NCBI RefSeq assembly: GCF_900100335.1
Contig: NZ_FNFE01000004.1
Span: 62,001 to 126,000, forward strand
Direction of reading: 5' to 3'
Source of the DNA: Natronorubrum texcoconense
Lineage (GTDB): Archaea > Halobacteriota > Halobacteria > Halobacteriales > Natrialbaceae
Length of the DNA: 64,000 bases
This document shows positions 55,978-64,000 of the stretch, piece after piece. Numbering within the stretch: position 1 is the first letter of the stretch; every line of letters begins with the position of its first letter. Position numbers and translations under genes: made by a program. Below the pieces are notes generated by a model. That model did no database searches. It saw only the letters and a program-made list of their open reading frames with translations, and had not been told where the DNA came from.

Positions 55978-56394
55978 TCGCGACTGCGGGTCGAGAGATC
56001 GGCCAAAAAATCGAGCGGAGTCGCGGCCGGCCGGCGCTGGTACGTGATATGAGCGCGATGCAGAGCCCCGCGAGCGGAGCCGTTCGCCGACCGACCACCG
56101 TCGTCGCGTGAGCCACGACCACTGCGCCATCGTCTGGCGCACGCGGAAGGTGGGAGTCGAACGCCACGAGCGAAGCGCCGCGCGGGCCGAGTGACCGCGA
56201 TACGCCTCGCGAACCGATCTTCCGTACCCTGTTCGAGGGTCGACATCGTATTCGTAATCGTCCGGCTATCGGCCGGTAGGCACTCCGTTCCCGGCCCGTC
56301 TCGAGTCTCCTCCTTCATCTCCGTCCGGACGCCCGTCGTCGATTCGCGAAACGGTTCGGTGCCTTTAGGACGCGGCCGGTCCGTGAGTCGAACG
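55978..56394. other. Intergenic region upstream of the XPD-like helicase
   Basis: 417 bp. The last 40 bp hold the helicase promoter. Around 56090-56190 the minus strand has a GTTCGACT loop between GTGG and CCAC reminiscent of a tRNA T-arm, but no full cloverleaf can be drawn. No credible protein gene. Confidence 0.55.
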
Positions 56395-58236
56395 GTGAAT
56401 CCCGAGCGGATCTTCGAGGAGTTCCCCGCGCCGAGCTACCGCGGGACCCAGGAGCAAGCCCTCCGAGACATTCGCGACGCGTTCGCGGCCGGCAACGACG
56501 TCGTCTTAGTTCGCGCGCCGACGGGTAGCGGCAAGTCCCTGCTCGCGCGAGCCGTCGCCGGCTGTGCACGCCACGTCGAGGATAGCGACCCCAGCGACGC
56601 GACGGGGGCCTACTACACGACGCCGCAGGTCTCGCAGTTGGACGACGTCGCGGCCGACGACCTGCTGTCGGACCTGAACGTCATCCGCGGGAAATCGAAC
56701 TACAGCTGTATCCTGCCGGACGAGCGCAACACGCCGGTCAATCAGGCCCCCTGCGTCCGCGAACGGGGCTACGACTGTTCGGTCAAACACCGCTGTCCGT
56801 ACTTTTCGGATCGAGCGATCGCTTCGAACCGGTCGATCGCAGCGATGACGCTCGCCTACTTCATGCAGACTGCGGGTAGCGAGGTGTTTCGTACGCGCGA
56901 CGTCGTTGTCATCGACGAGGCCCACGGGCTCGCCCAGTGGGCCGAGATGTACGCGACCATCCAACTTGGACCGCGGACCGTCCCGTTCTGGGACGAGCTC
57001 CGCGTCCCCGAGATCGACTCCCTCGATCGCGCCGTCCGTTACGCGGAGAACCTCGCTCAGATCTGCGGCCGCCGGAAGGACGACCTGCTCTCTCAGGACT
57101 CGCTGTCGCCCGCGGAGGTGCGCGAGCGCGACCGCCTCCAGGAACTCATCGGCGAACTCGACTGGTTCGTCTCGGACTACCGCGATCCGGAGAGTCCGAC
57201 GACGTGGCTGGTCGACCAATCCGAGCCCTCGAGCGCCCGCGTCGAGAGCCGCGCCGACGACGACGAGCCCGCGGGCGGCCCCCTCACGATCAAGCCGATG
57301 AGTCCCGAGAAGTACCTCAAGCACACGGTCTGGGACCGCGGCAACAAGTTCGCGCTGCTGTCGGCGACGATTCTGAACAAGGACGCCTTCTGCCGACAGG
57401 TCGGGCTGAATCCGGAGAACGTCGCGCTGGTCGACGTCGAGCACACGTTCCCGGTCGAAAATCGGCCGCTGTACGACGTTACGCAGGGGAAGATGACCTA
57501 CGAGCACCGATCGGAGACGACGCCGAAGATCGCCCGGACGATCGTTCGGCTCATGCAACACCATCCCGACGAAAAGGGGCTGGTCCACGCCCACTCCTAC
57601 GACATTCAGGAGCGACTCGCCGACATGCTCTCCGACTTCGGCGTCGGCGACCGCGTCCGGACCCACGATCGGGACGGCCGCGACGCCGCACTCGACGCCT
57701 GGAAAGCGAGCGACGATCCCGACGTCTTTCTCTCGGTGAAGATGGAGGAAGCGCTCGACCTCAAAGGCGATCTCTGTCGGTGGCAGGTGCTCTGTAAGGC
57801 GCCGTTCCTCAACACAGGGGACTCGCGGGTCGCCCACCGACTCGAGGAGGGCCAGTGGGCCTGGTACTACCGTACCGCCTTGCGAACCATCATCCAGGGC
57901 TGTGGCCGCGTCGTCCGCGCGCCGGACGACTACGGGGCGACGTATCTCGCGGACTCGAGCCTGCTCGACCTCTTCGAGCGCGCACGCACGGACATGCCCG
58001 ACTGGTTCGAAGAACAGGTCGATCGGCTCTCGGAACCGGACTTACCCGAGTTCCAGCCGCAGGCGGCGCTCGCCGACAGCGGTGGTGCTGGCGGGGGTAA
58101 CACGACGTCGGCAACGAGCGAGACCGGCACCTCGACGACGGACGAACGGTCGCGGAACCGCTCGCGTTCCCGACGGTCGGGTCGCGGCTCATCGTCCTCG
58201 AGTCCGCTGGCCGACGTCTGGGACACGGACGGCTAG
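56395..58236 (+). CDS. XPD/Rad3-like ATP-dependent DNA helicase with Fe-S cluster
   Basis: 613 residues from GTG 56395; TATA-like CCTTTAGG is centred about 29 nt upstream. Superfamily 2 motifs are Walker A APTGSGKS (41-48), DEAH at 174-177, and motif VI QGCGRVVRAPDDYG. Cysteines 105, 120, 128 and 134 lie in the spot where XPD/FancJ hold a 4Fe-4S cluster. The C-terminal 60 residues are a Ser/Thr/Gly-rich region with an Arg-rich patch, probably disordered. It unwinds DNA 5'-3' in repair by family analogy. Much shorter starts would remove the Q-motif region. Confidence 0.9.
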   Translation: MNPERIFEEFPAPSYRGTQEQALRDIRDAFAAGNDVVLVRAPTGSGKSLLARAVAGCARHVEDSDPSDATGAYYTTPQVSQLDDVAADDLLSDLNVIRGKSNYSCILPDERNTPVNQAPCVRERGYDCSVKHRCPYFSDRAIASNRSIAAMTLAYFMQTAGSEVFRTRDVVVIDEAHGLAQWAEMYATIQLGPRTVPFWDELRVPEIDSLDRAVRYAENLAQICGRRKDDLLSQDSLSPAEVRERDRLQELIGELDWFVSDYRDPESPTTWLVDQSEPSSARVESRADDDEPAGGPLTIKPMSPEKYLKHTVWDRGNKFALLSATILNKDAFCRQVGLNPENVALVDVEHTFPVENRPLYDVTQGKMTYEHRSETTPKIARTIVRLMQHHPDEKGLVHAHSYDIQERLADMLSDFGVGDRVRTHDRDGRDAALDAWKASDDPDVFLSVKMEEALDLKGDLCRWQVLCKAPFLNTGDSRVAHRLEEGQWAWYYRTALRTIIQGCGRVVRAPDDYGATYLADSSLLDLFERARTDMPDWFEEQVDRLSEPDLPEFQPQAALADSGGAGGGNTTSATSETGTSTTDERSRNRSRSRRSGRGSSSSSPLADVWDTDG

Positions 58237-58589: not shown

Positions 58590-59477
58590 TCAGCGTCGGC
58601 GCTGACGGACGGTTACGCCGACTAGTACGGCGAGCACCGTTCCGATCGTGAGGGCGAGACCGAAGCCCGGCAGTCCGTCACTATCGTCGGCGTCGTCCGC
58701 GCCGTTTTCGTCGTCTGCGCTCTCTCCGTCGTCGGCGTCGGTCTCGTCGTCGCTGTTGTCGTCACTGCTGTCGGTGTCGTCGTCCGTGTCGTCAGTGTCA
58801 TCCGCGCCGTCTCCATCGTCGGTGTCTGTTTCACCGCCTCCGGCGGTATCGTCGACACCGCTTTCGTCACCGTCCGCTGTCTCATCGCTCTCGGTTTCGG
58901 TCGCATTCGTGTTACCGTCGGTTCCGTCGCCGACACCACCGCTTCCGCCGCTACTCGGGGCCGTCTCGCCCGCTGATGAGTCGTCGGTTTCGCCGATGAC
59001 TTCGCCGTCACCGTCCGTGACCAACGAATCGCCGTCGACGAACTCGAGCCCCGATAGCCCGTCGTCGCCGACGGTCATCGTCACCGTCGCGAGCGTCGGT
59101 TCGTCGACGCTCTCCGAGCCGACGTTCGACTGGGTCAGGAACACGTGCCCGGTGTCGGAGTCGTCGGAGTGGTAGCTGACGCCCCCTAACTCTTCGAACT
59201 CGACGCTCTCGACGCTCGTGTCGGTCGGTGCGTAGCTCAGGTTCGCCTGAAAGCCGGCGCTGTCCGCGGCAGTGGACGACACTGTGACGGTGACGGTGTC
59301 GTCGCTCGAGTCGGTCACCTCGAGCGCCAGCGTACCGTCCGCGCCGGTCGTCGTCAGTTCGCCGTGTGAGCCGCCGTCGGCGGTCGTTGCGTGTGCGCCA
59401 GCCGCCATCGCCGTCGTCGCGAGGACGACCACCATGACGAGGACGAATAGTCGCTTCAGTGATCTCGTATCTGTCAT
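58590..59477 (-). CDS. Cohesin-like surface protein with PGF-CTERM anchor
   Basis: 295 residues from ATG 59477. A Sec signal peptide (LFVLVMVVVLATTAMAAGA) is followed by one cohesin-like beta domain (about residues 35-165: TDSSDDTVTVTVSSTA, AGFQANLSYAPTD, DEPTLATVTMTV). A long Asp/Thr/Ser spacer, likely glycosylated and wall-spanning, leads to a C-terminal LPGFGLALTIG helix and RQRRR, the PGF-CTERM signal cut by archaeosortase A and replaced by lipid. It lies 100 bp downstream of the subtilase gene on the same strand, so the two are probably co-expressed. Confidence 0.85.
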   Translation of the reverse strand: MTDTRSLKRLFVLVMVVVLATTAMAAGAHATTADGGSHGELTTTGADGTLALEVTDSSDDTVTVTVSSTAADSAGFQANLSYAPTDTSVESVEFEELGGVSYHSDDSDTGHVFLTQSNVGSESVDEPTLATVTMTVGDDGLSGLEFVDGDSLVTDGDGEVIGETDDSSAGETAPSSGGSGGVGDGTDGNTNATETESDETADGDESGVDDTAGGGETDTDDGDGADDTDDTDDDTDSSDDNSDDETDADDGESADDENGADDADDSDGLPGFGLALTIGTVLAVLVGVTVRQRRR

Positions 59478-59577
59478 TGTGTTGATCTGGTGTGCAAATC
59501 GGTTCCGTTCGATACGCTTCCGTTCGATACGCTTCAGGACAAAAATCGCCTCGTGGCGATGTGGGTGTGTTTTCTGG

Positions 59578-62500
59578 CTATGCCTCGAGTGCGTCTGCGC
59601 CGTGGGCAGCGACGATCTCTTCGAGGATGAGCGTGACGTCACCGGCGTCGACCTGCCCGTTTCCGTTCATGTCGGCGATCGACTCGTGGAACGTATCGGT
59701 CGGTTCGTCGCCGGCGAGATACTGCTGGGTGAGCGTCACGTCGTAGGCGTTGACTTCCCCGTCGGCGTTGACGTCGCCGGGCCAGGCCGTCGAAATCGTG
59801 CCGTCGATCGGCAGGATGTCGAGCTCGCCGTGTTCGTCGTTGAGGTAGGTGTTCGCCTCGTCGAACGCCAGTGCGGAGTCGCCGTCGCTCTCGTTGACGA
59901 ATTCGAACTCGACTTCGGCGAGCGTCGGGGCCGATTCGTCGCTGGCTTGCGCCTGTGCGATCGAGAACGTCCCGTTGTCGTTGTCGACGTTCGTCACGGG
60001 GTCGGCGAAGTCGACACCCTCGATGTCGGTGACCTGTACGACGTCCGGATCGAACTGCACCTGCGTCTCGTATCCGGCGACGGCATCGGCGGACGTGTTG
60101 ATCTCGACGGTCGTCGTCTCGCCGATCGTTCCGATGTGATCGCCCTCACCGAACGTCAGCAGACCGTCCGGCTGTTCGATGATCGTCACGTTGCTGGAAG
60201 CGGCGTCGTCGTCGCTTGCAACCGTAACGGGGGCCGTTCCGGCGTCACTGACGTTGGTCTCCCACGTCAGCGTGATCGCCGTCGTTTCACCCTCTTCGAG
60301 TTCGACCGTCGTACTGTCGACCTCGTTGCCTTCGAAGTCGGAGAGCGCCACGGTTTGCGTCTCGTTCTCGGCGTCGACGTTACTCACGGTGGCGCCGACG
60401 GTCAGTTCGTCGCCTTCGATCACCGGCTCGTTGGTGTCCGTGATGTCGACCTGGAAGCCGGTTCCGAGATCCGTCTGGAGGTATTCGACGGCGTTCGCCA
60501 GAATCGTATCGGCGTCGTCGGTGTAGTCGCCGTCACCGACGAACGTAGTGTACCCCAGGTTCGATGCCAGAACCGTGGCGCTCCGTTCGTCGACGGCGAA
60601 CCCGTCGCCGACCGTCGTGTCGGTTCCGGTTATGGCGGTCTCCGCCAGCACGTCGAACTCGGTGTCGTCGAACCAGGTGTGGTCGCCGAACGCCGCAGTG
60701 TGGAGGTCGACGCTGTCGCCATCGTCGCCGACACCGTCGAAGATGTCGTGCGTCGACGTCAGTTCGTAGCCGATCGGCGGCGTGACGAAGTCGTCCTGGA
60801 ACGTGGCGCTCGGCTCACCCGTGAGCTCGGAGTGAACCGGAATCGCGTTGCTCTCCTCACCCCATTGGTCGAGGTAGACGACGCCGGTAGCCGCGTCGTC
60901 GGTAGCGTCGATGAACGCCTCGGCGTTCGCCTCGTCTATCTGCTGGACGACGATTGCGTCGTAGCCGTTCATCGCCTCTTCGGCGTCGACGACGGTCGGC
61001 GCGTACATCGGTGGCAGCGACTCCTCGAGGGTCGCTGCGACGTCGGCACCGTGCGTGTTGCTGTCGTCGACGACGGCGACGGGAACGTACTCCTCGAACA
61101 CCGTCGTCGGACCGGTGGTGACGACCGCCTCGTCGTCGAGTCCCGTGACGGTGTGCTCGAGCGAGAACTCGCCGTCGGTGTCCGCGGTCGTTTCGACGGT
61201 GATCGTCAGTTCGTCGGTAACGGGACCGCCGAGGTCGACTGACTCGCCGAACTCGACTTCCTCACCCTCGACGAACAGGGTCGCGTCGTCGGTTTCGTAC
61301 TCGCCATCGAAATCAACGGTTACCGTCTCGGCGTTCGCGACGTCGAGGGTCACGTCGACCGCGTCACCGCCTTCGACGCCGTCGGGCTGTTCGTCGATCA
61401 GTTCGACGTCGAGTCCGTCGGCGAGTTCGAACTCCTGGACGGTGACTTCCTCCGCTTCGACCGTCACGTCGGAACTCGCACTCTCGTAGCCGAACGCGTC
61501 GGCGGTCACGGTGTACTCGCCTTCGGCGGCGATCAGGTGATACTGGCCGTCTGCATCGGTCGTGGTGCTCCCGCCGTCATCGAGATCGACGGTTGCGCCC
61601 TCGATCGGAACGCCGTCGTCGTCGGTGACGGTGCCGTTGACGCCGCTGTCGAGTGCGACCAGGTCGGTCGCGGCGGCGACGTCGATGATCCCGTGTCCGT
61701 ACTCGGTGTTCGGATCCTCGTCGGGAGCGTGATCCGGTTGCCAGGCGGTTTCTTCCATCGCATCGTACAGCAGTTCGCGGTCGGCGTCACCGCTGGAGGC
61801 GGCGACCATCAGCGCAAAGGCGCCGGCTTTGTGTGGCGCGGACATCGAGGTTCCGGAGTAGGTCCCGTCGTAGCCACCGCCGGGGACCGCGCTCAGCACC
61901 TCGACACCGGGTGCCGCTGCGTCCGGCACGACGTACTCGTCGGGCCAGTAGTCCGGTGCGTCCGGATACGCGCTCTCCGTCTCGACGAGTTCGCCGCTCG
62001 AGAACGACGCGACCTGTGCGTCTTCGTCGACGGCACCGCTCGCGACGTTGGGGTAGATGTTTCCGGGGGCTCCGCTGACTCCCTGACCGCTGTTTCCGAT
62101 CGACGAAACCAGCACGACGCCGGCGTCTCGAGCGTTTTCGGAGGGCTCGACCATCTCGTCGTCGTAGCCGTCCACGCCGAGACTCATCGTGACGATGTCG
62201 GCGTCAGTGTCGTCGACGGCCCACTCCATCCCAGCGATGATCTGCGCGAACGTTCCGCCGCCAGCGTCGTCGAGAACCTTTCCGTGGTAGAGTTCGGCCC
62301 CGGGGGCGACGCCGTAGGCGGGAACGTCACCGTCGGGATCGTCCGGTCCGACGACGGTTCCGCTCACGTGCGTTCCGTGGCCGTTTCCGTCGTTGGGGTC
62401 GCTGTCGACCGGCTCGCCGTTCCCGTCGAACTCGATCCAGTTTCCGTCGTCGATCTCGAGGTCGGGATGGTCGGTGTCGACGCCCGTATCGAGGACCGCG

Positions 62501-63120
62501 ACACCTGCGCCCTCACCCTGGGTTCCGTGTTCGTCCCAGACCTCGGTCGCGTTGATCATATCGAGACCGTACGTGACGCTTTCGTTCGTCGGCTCCGCCG
62601 ACGGTTCATCCGCTGACTCGCCGTCCGTACTGGCGTCGCTGTCGTCTCGCTCACCCATCGTTTCCACGTCGAAGTTCGCGTGGATCGACTCGGCACCGGT
62701 GTACCGCAGCACTTCCTCGGGCGACACCTGCGTGGTATCGACCTCGAGGAGGACCGCGTTCGCGATCCAGAACCGGTTGACGTAATCGACACCGTCCGTC
62801 TCTGCGGCCCACCGGACTGTGTCGGTCTGCGTTGCTTGGGCGTGTTGTTGCAACTCGCCGATGGCGTCCGCCGTACTCGCCGAGGCGGCGACGTCGGCGC
62901 TCTCGAACCGAACCACCATCTCCGTGGTTCCGTCTGCCTCGTGCAGCGCCTCGTCGATCCGGTCCCCTGCCAGTTCGACATCGTCGAGTTGGTCGTCGGC
63001 TGCCGATGTCCCGTCGAGCGTCCCGGCCCCCGCCATTGCCGGGAGTGACGTAACCATTAACAGCGCAAATACGACAACTATGCTCCGTCGGAGCGTCGAT
63101 TTCGATCGTTGTCTGCTCAT
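59578..63120 (-). CDS. Secreted subtilase with cohesin and dockerin modules
   Basis: 1180 residues. Signal peptide (residues 12-32), I9-like propeptide (about 45-155), S8 catalytic domain with D211 (AVLDTGVDTDHPD), H248 (NGHGTHVSG), oxyanion N343 and S425 (YSGTSMSAP). Then a carboxypeptidase-regulatory-like beta domain (about 495-570), a GATase-like region (about 680-900), a CARDB-like segment, a cohesin-like domain (about 980-1108) and a type I dockerin (about 1114-1171) with two calcium loops DVNADGEVNAYD and DMNGNGQVDAGD. No PGF-CTERM of its own, so surface attachment may rely on dockerin-cohesin binding to the neighbour. Halolysin relatives usually lack cohesin and dockerin. Confidence 0.9.
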   Translation of the reverse strand: MSRQRSKSTLRRSIVVVFALLMVTSLPAMAGAGTLDGTSAADDQLDDVELAGDRIDEALHEADGTTEMVVRFESADVAASASTADAIGELQQHAQATQTDTVRWAAETDGVDYVNRFWIANAVLLEVDTTQVSPEEVLRYTGAESIHANFDVETMGERDDSDASTDGESADEPSAEPTNESVTYGLDMINATEVWDEHGTQGEGAGVAVLDTGVDTDHPDLEIDDGNWIEFDGNGEPVDSDPNDGNGHGTHVSGTVVGPDDPDGDVPAYGVAPGAELYHGKVLDDAGGGTFAQIIAGMEWAVDDTDADIVTMSLGVDGYDDEMVEPSENARDAGVVLVSSIGNSGQGVSGAPGNIYPNVASGAVDEDAQVASFSSGELVETESAYPDAPDYWPDEYVVPDAAAPGVEVLSAVPGGGYDGTYSGTSMSAPHKAGAFALMVAASSGDADRELLYDAMEETAWQPDHAPDEDPNTEYGHGIIDVAAATDLVALDSGVNGTVTDDDGVPIEGATVDLDDGGSTTTDADGQYHLIAAEGEYTVTADAFGYESASSDVTVEAEEVTVQEFELADGLDVELIDEQPDGVEGGDAVDVTLDVANAETVTVDFDGEYETDDATLFVEGEEVEFGESVDLGGPVTDELTITVETTADTDGEFSLEHTVTGLDDEAVVTTGPTTVFEEYVPVAVVDDSNTHGADVAATLEESLPPMYAPTVVDAEEAMNGYDAIVVQQIDEANAEAFIDATDDAATGVVYLDQWGEESNAIPVHSELTGEPSATFQDDFVTPPIGYELTSTHDIFDGVGDDGDSVDLHTAAFGDHTWFDDTEFDVLAETAITGTDTTVGDGFAVDERSATVLASNLGYTTFVGDGDYTDDADTILANAVEYLQTDLGTGFQVDITDTNEPVIEGDELTVGATVSNVDAENETQTVALSDFEGNEVDSTTVELEEGETTAITLTWETNVSDAGTAPVTVASDDDAASSNVTIIEQPDGLLTFGEGDHIGTIGETTTVEINTSADAVAGYETQVQFDPDVVQVTDIEGVDFADPVTNVDNDNGTFSIAQAQASDESAPTLAEVEFEFVNESDGDSALAFDEANTYLNDEHGELDILPIDGTISTAWPGDVNADGEVNAYDVTLTQQYLAGDEPTDTFHESIADMNGNGQVDAGDVTLILEEIVAAHGADALEA

Positions 63121-63389: not shown

Positions 63390-64000
63390 CTATTCGACCC
63401 GGACGTCGAGGACGACGTGTTCGACCCCCGCACTGTGGCTCTTCACGCGCCGTCGGTCGAGTACGTCGAGCGTTCGTCCGGCGTCGGCGACCGCCGTCTC
63501 GAGCCGATCCATCGGCCGGTCCCACAGTCGCGACGTCGGCGTCGCCTCGTGATAGTGGACGACGCCGCCGGGAACGAGCGCCTCGAGCGCCGTCGGGAGG
63601 AACTCGTGGGCTTCGTCGGTTCGCGTGCCGTGCTCGTCGCCGTCCGCGCCGGTGACTTCGGCGTCGGCACTCCCGTAGTACCCCATCACGACCCGATCGA
63701 CCTCGAGTTCGCTCGCGAGATCCCGGCAGTCGGTCATGTAGGCGTCGACTCGGTCGCCGACGTCGTTCAGCACGGCGTTCTCGAGCAGGTAGCGAAACGC
63801 GGTCGGGTTGATCTCGCTCGCCGTCACCCGCGCCCCGGCGCGGGCCATCGGGAGGGTGAAGTAGCCGATGCCGGCGAACATGTCGAAGACGCGCTCGCCG
63901 TCCGCAACGACGGCTCCCATTCGGGCGCGCTCAGCTTGATTTCCGGGCGAGAACATCACCGTCGCGGGGTCGAGTCCGTACCTGGTTCCGTGCTCGGTGT
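63390..64000 (-). CDS. taw2: Taw2/Trm5-like tRNA wybutosine enzyme, C-terminal part (5' end outside window)
   Basis: The frame is open to the right edge. SAM-dependent Rossmann fold: YGLDPATVMFSPGNQAERAR (Trm5/Taw2 signature), FDMFAGIGYFTLP, ASEINPTAFRYLLENAVLND, and DRVVMGYYGS where Trm5 would read a NLP-type motif. That last motif favours Taw2, which transfers the aminocarboxypropyl group of SAM to 4-demethylwyosine at position 37 of tRNA-Phe, over the methyltransferase Trm5. The C-terminus is complete. Confidence 0.82.
   Translation of the reverse strand, partial: TEHGTRYGLDPATVMFSPGNQAERARMGAVVADGERVFDMFAGIGYFTLPMARAGARVTASEINPTAFRYLLENAVLNDVGDRVDAYMTDCRDLASELEVDRVVMGYYGSADAEVTGADGDEHGTRTDEAHEFLPTALEALVPGGVVHYHEATPTSRLWDRPMDRLETAVADAGRTLDVLDRRRVKSHSAGVEHVVLDVRVE

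Follow-up and report, generated by a model that had tools for sequence, protein, structure and literature searches.

Cohesins and dockerins in bacteria and archaea

In the bacterial cellulosome, the secreted enzyme carries a type I dockerin and its cell-attached partner carries a cohesin. In other settings, the function of the two modules is described as unknown (PMC5244752). Proteases may also be held in this way: according to the account of Chen et al. 2024 given in a review (PMC12484212), the dockerin of an S8 protease from Clostridium thermocellum prefers the cell-bound scaffoldin. In archaea, specific cohesin-dockerin pairing is said to have been verified experimentally, and ANME archaea reach five cohesins (PMC9012536); the same article cites Peer 2009 for a report that archaea are without large scaffoldins. 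A literature search, which covered few subscription journals, found no published description of haloarchaeal cohesin-dockerin pairs or scaffoldins.

The window analysed here is a stretch of 64,000 nucleotides from a haloarchaeal genome of 4.64 Mb, which is 99.9% complete. Two adjacent genes in it have the same division of parts as the cellulosome. We put the probability at roughly three in four that they form a two-gene surface-tethering device, in which a cohesin anchored by the PGF/archaeosortase A route would capture an exported dockerin subtilase and keep the protease on the cell.

The subtilase gene

The secreted subtilase (59578..63120, minus strand; 1180 aa) consists of a signal peptide, a propeptide region, a peptidase S8 domain, a CarboxypepD_reg domain (aa 494-566), a CARDB-like domain (aa 891-972; a weak match), a cohesin and a dockerin. 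The S8 catalytic domain (aa 202-477; 61690..62517, minus strand) covers the full PF00082 profile (1.8e-37, 129.7 bits) and has the triad D211/H248/S425, assigned by motif, which places the protein in the S8 family. The C-terminal type I dockerin (aa 1114-1165; 59626..59781, minus strand; PF00404, 1.2e-12) scores 48-50 bits against a cut-off of 22.9. It contains two calcium-loop repeats, DVNADGEVNAYD and DMNGNGQVDAGD, and both loops are kept in every orthologue. Among the solved dockerins that match its profile is 8x39/8x3a, from a serine protease of C. thermocellum (1.7e-8); from PMC12484212 we infer that this protease is Cthe_0689.

The cohesin of the protease (the cis cohesin) lies at about aa 1000-1112 (HMM match aa 1000-1114; 59785..60123, minus strand). 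It scores 22.0-23.2 bits against PF00963 (22.0 in the isolated segment), which is below the cut-off of 24.1. In its fold as modelled on orthologues (AF2 and Foldseek) the top PDB matches are all cohesins, with a TM to target of up to 0.71; judged by this model, it is a true cohesin. The original prediction of a subtilase ending in a cohesin-like domain and a two-loop dockerin is therefore confirmed by domain profiles and, for the cohesin, by predicted fold. The protease was also expected to have no membrane anchor, and a C-terminal membrane segment was looked for and not seen.

The anchor gene

The anchor gene (58590..59477, minus strand; 295 aa) starts 100 bp after the protease stop on the same strand. 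It has orthologues in other genomes and encodes a signal peptide, a cohesin, an acidic spacer and a C-terminal anchor. An adjacent cohesin-like gene with an acidic spacer had been predicted, and this part stands; the start has been moved. ATG 59477, which gives the signal peptide MTDTRSLKRLFVLVMVVVLATTAMAAGAHA, is almost certainly the start codon, and GTG 59642 was rejected in its favour.

The anchor cohesin (59001..59318, minus strand; G000:C10:121001-121318) scores 25.1 bits against PF00963 in the genome search, just above the cut-off, and has no match with default hmmscan. Alignment of its profile with that of the protease cohesin (hhalign) gives a probability of 99.7% and an E-value of 5.5e-26. 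The AF2 model of an orthologue has a fold which matches cohesins, and the top PDB matches of orthologue models are cellulosomal cohesins and the Archaeoglobus cohesin 2xdh (E 6.7e-8); when the anchor profile was compared with PDB sequences, it gave weak matches to type II cohesins and nothing more.

The cohesin is followed by a D/E/S/T/G-rich spacer, roughly 103 residues long (aa 166-268; 58674..58982, minus strand) and containing 34 D and 9 E, and by a PGF-type C-terminal signal (LPGFG...VRQRRR; 58593..58673, minus strand) with a hydrophobic stretch and a basic tail. The C-terminus of the protein is LPGFGLALTIGTVLAVLVGVTVRQRRR. The predicted PGF-CTERM signal is upheld only in part: the HMM TIGR04126 gives 10.5 bits, well below its cut-off of 24.5, but the PGF-hydrophobic-basic pattern is visible by eye. 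Several orthologues have clear PGF signals, although some orthologous anchors are without PGF, and the host genome encodes ArtA (TIGR04125, 328.9 bits). The label is retained because of the pattern, the orthologues and the presence of ArtA.

In the proposed mechanism, the anchor protein would be exported and, after archaeosortase A processing, held in the membrane through its C-terminal PGF-type signal, presumably with lipid attachment by ArtA. The acidic spacer would carry the single cohesin outward through the S-layer. The subtilase would be exported without an anchor of its own; its calcium-dependent C-terminal dockerin would plug into the anchor cohesin, and the active protease would thereby be retained and displayed on the surface of the producing cell. 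A two-gene design of this kind might allow a folded or self-processing enzyme to be displayed without its own membrane signal.

Distribution of the pair

Of 125 family genomes, 22 encode the full-length protease (with cohesin and dockerin); these 22 are also the ones with the anchor cohesin, and no genome carries one alone. The chance of two 22-genome sets matching is about 1e-24, in a calculation which ignores relatedness. Genomes carrying each gene alone had been named as evidence that would count against the original prediction; for the orthologous anchor they are ruled out by the identical sets, with co-occurrence in 22 of 22, and orthologues of the window's anchor are found only with a dockerin protease in the family comparison. 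Apparent lone cohesins of other families mostly adjoin a different dockerin enzyme. A few cohesin-anchor proteins do stand alone (L002, L006, L199 and L200).

A class-wide scan of 392 genomes added 13 pair-bearing genomes from three further families, which brings the total to 35. Carriers include Natrialba asiatica, Halobiforma, Haloarchaeobius and Halorubrum tebenquichense. A single-cohesin anchor gene lies directly 3' of the protease on the same strand in 33 of the 35 genomes, across four families; the gaps are mostly 40-150 bp (33 genomes with the locus read). In one genome (G353) adjacency is taken from coordinates only. Another (G031) has no single anchor and has a multi-cohesin gene upstream of the protease instead, and Haloarchaeobius iranensis has one extra protease copy (L080) without a neighbouring anchor. 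The cis cohesin is kept in every S8 orthologue whose locus was read, and the anchor cohesin is conserved in every orthologue. Conservation of the linked pair across dozens of genomes puts the two-gene observation far above chance.

Of the 10 genomes in the genus of the window, three carry the pair, and in each it lies between the same two genes. These encode a methyltransferase (63390..63998, minus strand; Trm5/TYW2-like by eye) and a helicase (56191..58236, plus strand; XPD/DinG-like by eye), which form the conserved boundaries. In five of the seven remaining genomes the site is empty and some 250-330 bp separate the flanking genes; in the other two it is occupied by unrelated genes. Four of the seven were searched for dockerins and all four had none. 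The pair thus behaves as a single cassette, since the flanks are constant and the site is empty or replaced in pair-less relatives.

Two variants of the arrangement were seen elsewhere. In one genome (G126; L204:2220-4363), a secreted cohesin and dockerin protein of 502 aa, which is not a recognisable subtilase, adjoins a single-cohesin anchor; it is perhaps a third enzyme type on the tether. In another (G260; L173:4317-11877), one cohesin anchor gene is flanked on both sides by dockerin subtilases, and the two proteases may share one anchor.

Other cohesins and dockerins in the host genome

A profile search of the host genome for other dockerin proteins, the check proposed with the original prediction, found exactly one dockerin, that of the protease itself. 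Exactly one is also found in 9 of 18 other pair-bearing genomes tested. It had been suggested that the protease cohesin could recruit further dockerin proteins; with just one dockerin gene, this is not supported here and is not expected in the host.

The same type of search finds six cohesin-like places. Two of them (L002 and L006) encode secreted cohesin proteins that end in an anchor and adjoin no dockerin gene. As these two lack a dockerin partner, dockerin binding need not be a property of every haloarchaeal cohesin. At both loci (L002:1264-1995 and L006:1366-2088) the single-cohesin anchored protein adjoins a His/Asp-rich secreted protein. One match (L005) looks like a CARDB false positive, and L007 is a further cohesin-like place.

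A second cassette and the division of labour

In other haloarchaeal families, a cohesin-only anchor directly follows a secreted dockerin metallophosphoesterase in 22 of 22 loci (L177-L198). The two genes usually overlap by 4 nt. Some of the 22 loci were checked for Tat-type signals and Pfam domains, and a Tat signal is often present. As a cis cohesin is absent from these cassettes, the metallophosphoesterase dockerin has an obvious partner in the anchor next to it. The metallophosphoesterase cassette is an independent replication of the enzyme and anchor design.

Of 39 intact cohesin-only proteins, 38 have a hydrophobic segment at the C-terminus and one is borderline. The 51 dockerin proteins, three of them cut or doubtful, all lack such a segment. 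The split is strict: plugs (dockerins) sit on enzymes and sockets (cohesins) sit on anchored proteins.

Expanded arrays in a related genus

In genus g11 (G030, G031 and G032), far larger clusters lie between the same flanking genes (L068/L069, G030:C1:466000-498000; L070, G031; L071/L072, G032:C1:73000-112000); the methyltransferase end of the G032 cluster lay beyond the region read. G030 and G032 contain many dockerin subtilases together with scaffoldins that have 8 (1258 aa) and 14 (2087 aa) cohesins, in which PGF-CTERM scores above the cut-off at 26-32 bits. G031 has genes with four and two cohesins; the four-cohesin gene (L070:10157-12774, minus strand) has a premature in-frame TAG ahead of its hydrophobic C-terminal segment. 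The number of dockerins per genome is 8 in G030, 3 in G031 and 15 in G032, and some of the array subtilases have two cis cohesins and a dockerin. We know of no archaeal scaffoldins larger than these, with their 8-14 cohesins.

In a tree of 118 cohesins, which is built on few columns and has several weak forks, cis cohesins, anchor cohesins and scaffoldin cohesins mostly group apart from one another. The tree also indicates that G030 and G032 retain an orthologue of the window's pair. The array dockerins differ in sequence from the dockerin of the orthologous protease.

Very large secreted PQQ-propeller/CARDB proteins with array-type dockerin ends are encoded at L167 and L168 (G032:C1:543000-573000) and L074 (G031), distant from the scaffoldin cluster; they are possibly extra scaffoldin cargo. 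In a cluster of Halopiger goleimassiliensis (L176; G011:C1:2912500-2932400), secreted proteins end in another kind of dockerin-like sequence, FDFDxDGxVxxADVLxLLxxL; a cohesin was not found near this cluster.

The pair looks like a simple surface clip for enzymes, because relatives keep, gain or lose both parts together and some have expanded them to arrays. A broader proposal, for which we consider the odds about even, is that haloarchaeal cohesin-dockerin pairs are a general clip-on for at least two classes of surface enzyme (subtilases and Tat-exported phosphoesterases). Anchored scaffoldins of 8-14 cohesins, loaded with many subtilases, would then make the g11 arrays, at the locus of the window's pair, the proteolytic equivalent of a cellulosome.

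Predicted pairing of the dockerin with the anchor cohesin

The reading frames of the window bar a single chain across both genes; for modelling only, the Natrialba asiatica locus, where the frame is shared, was therefore read through its stops. The resulting cohesin-dockerin-cohesin chain has high per-domain confidence and a pTM of 0.47 in AF2, and the cis cohesin and dockerin alone have a pTM of 0.59 and no fixed arrangement; both were judged from confidence values and are at most suggestive. The value of 0.47 is compatible with one docked pair, which is a weak indication. A rough pTM estimate, which carries little weight, corresponds to one rigid domain pair in the 438-aa model and none in the 189-aa model.

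Distances between dockerins co-vary with those between anchor cohesins after the S8 background is removed (partial rho 0.59, permutation p 5e-4). Co-divergence of the dockerin with the cis cohesin is higher (0.84), as expected for two modules in one gene. From these comparisons, it is likely that the anchor cohesin holds the protease dockerin. This part of the original interpretation holds by comparison (co-occurrence, adjacency, behaviour as a cassette and co-varying distances), but the recruitment of other proteins does not.

The cis cohesin is central to two other explanations. The protease dockerin might also plug into the cis cohesin of the next protease, so that one anchor carries a string of units. 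Presence of a true cohesin in every S8 orthologue read, the status of the protease dockerin as the only one in the host and the double cis cohesins of certain g11 array subtilases all fit such homotypic chaining, which is possible. We consider it unlikely, though a serious competitor: the metallophosphoesterase cassettes work without a cis cohesin, and the separate clades of cis and anchor cohesins suggest different binding surfaces. It is less probable again that the dockerin binds the cohesin of its own chain, or uses it to dimerise, which would switch structure or activity without a part for the neighbouring gene. The two modules adjoin in sequence and co-diverge most strongly, but the model of the cis pair lacks a fixed arrangement, and this reading would explain neither why protease and anchor genes are gained and lost together nor the cassettes without a cis cohesin.

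Other explanations concern the anchor. Its cohesin might bind another ligand (S-layer, glycan or substrate), or it might chaperone or inhibit the protease, as the existence of the four haloarchaeal cohesin anchors without a dockerin partner would allow. This is improbable, marginally more so than closure within the protease chain, given that orthologues of the window's anchor occur, within the family, only alongside a dockerin protease, and that the cohesin anchor is constant while its dockerin partner varies (protease, phosphoesterase or a protein of unknown type). Lastly, the modules might be vestigial, or might serve as generic Ig-like spacers and bind nothing; cohesin and dockerin sequences of A. 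fulgidus were once titled an 'enigmatic vestige', as cited in PMC9012536. Conservation of the calcium loops and the anchor cohesin in every orthologue, retention or loss of the cassette as a unit and expansion of the scaffoldins in g11 make this very hard to accept. Capture of the subtilase dockerin by the anchor cohesin is the preferred reading.

Comparison with known systems

The isolated two-gene cassettes, which often contain the only dockerin of the genome, are found in culturable and partly named haloarchaea; a non-cellulosomal role of cohesin and dockerin can therefore be tested by one deletion and one pull-down. If the pairing is true, it would provide a salt-tolerant orthogonal display pair.

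The locus had been described as a minimal cellulosome-like arrangement. This is apt as an analogy of parts, but the window does not contain a cellulosome. It has one cohesin per protein rather than a multi-cohesin scaffoldin, which is found only in the g11 relatives, and the single dockerin of the genome is on a protease, whereas cellulosomes have several dockerin enzymes that are mainly carbohydrate-active. There is no cellulose-binding module; the anchor is of the archaeal PGF type, and the enzyme has a cohesin of its own. The g11 arrays are closer to the bacterial system, since anchored multi-cohesin scaffoldins lie beside many dockerin enzymes. Cthe_0689 is a subtilase held through a dockerin which, as described in PMC12484212, prefers a cohesin of the cell-bound scaffoldin; it is a cellulosome accessory with two dockerins, whereas the window has the only dockerin of its genome and a dedicated anchor gene adjoining.

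The haloarchaeal cohesins share their fold with the A. fulgidus cohesin 2xdh. The Archaeoglobus and ANME cohesins are of unknown function and number at most five (ANME), whereas here an enzyme and anchor pair is repeated across genomes, with up to 14 cohesins in g11. The PGF motif, hydrophobic stretch, basic tail, acidic spacer and encoded ArtA are all shared with haloarchaeal PGF-CTERM/ArtA surface proteins. In those proteins the enzyme or S-layer protein is itself anchored; in the window, the anchored part is a putative receptor module for a separate enzyme. The pair is probably a surface tether made from cohesin-dockerin parts, with a predicted pairing between them, and is not a cellulosome.
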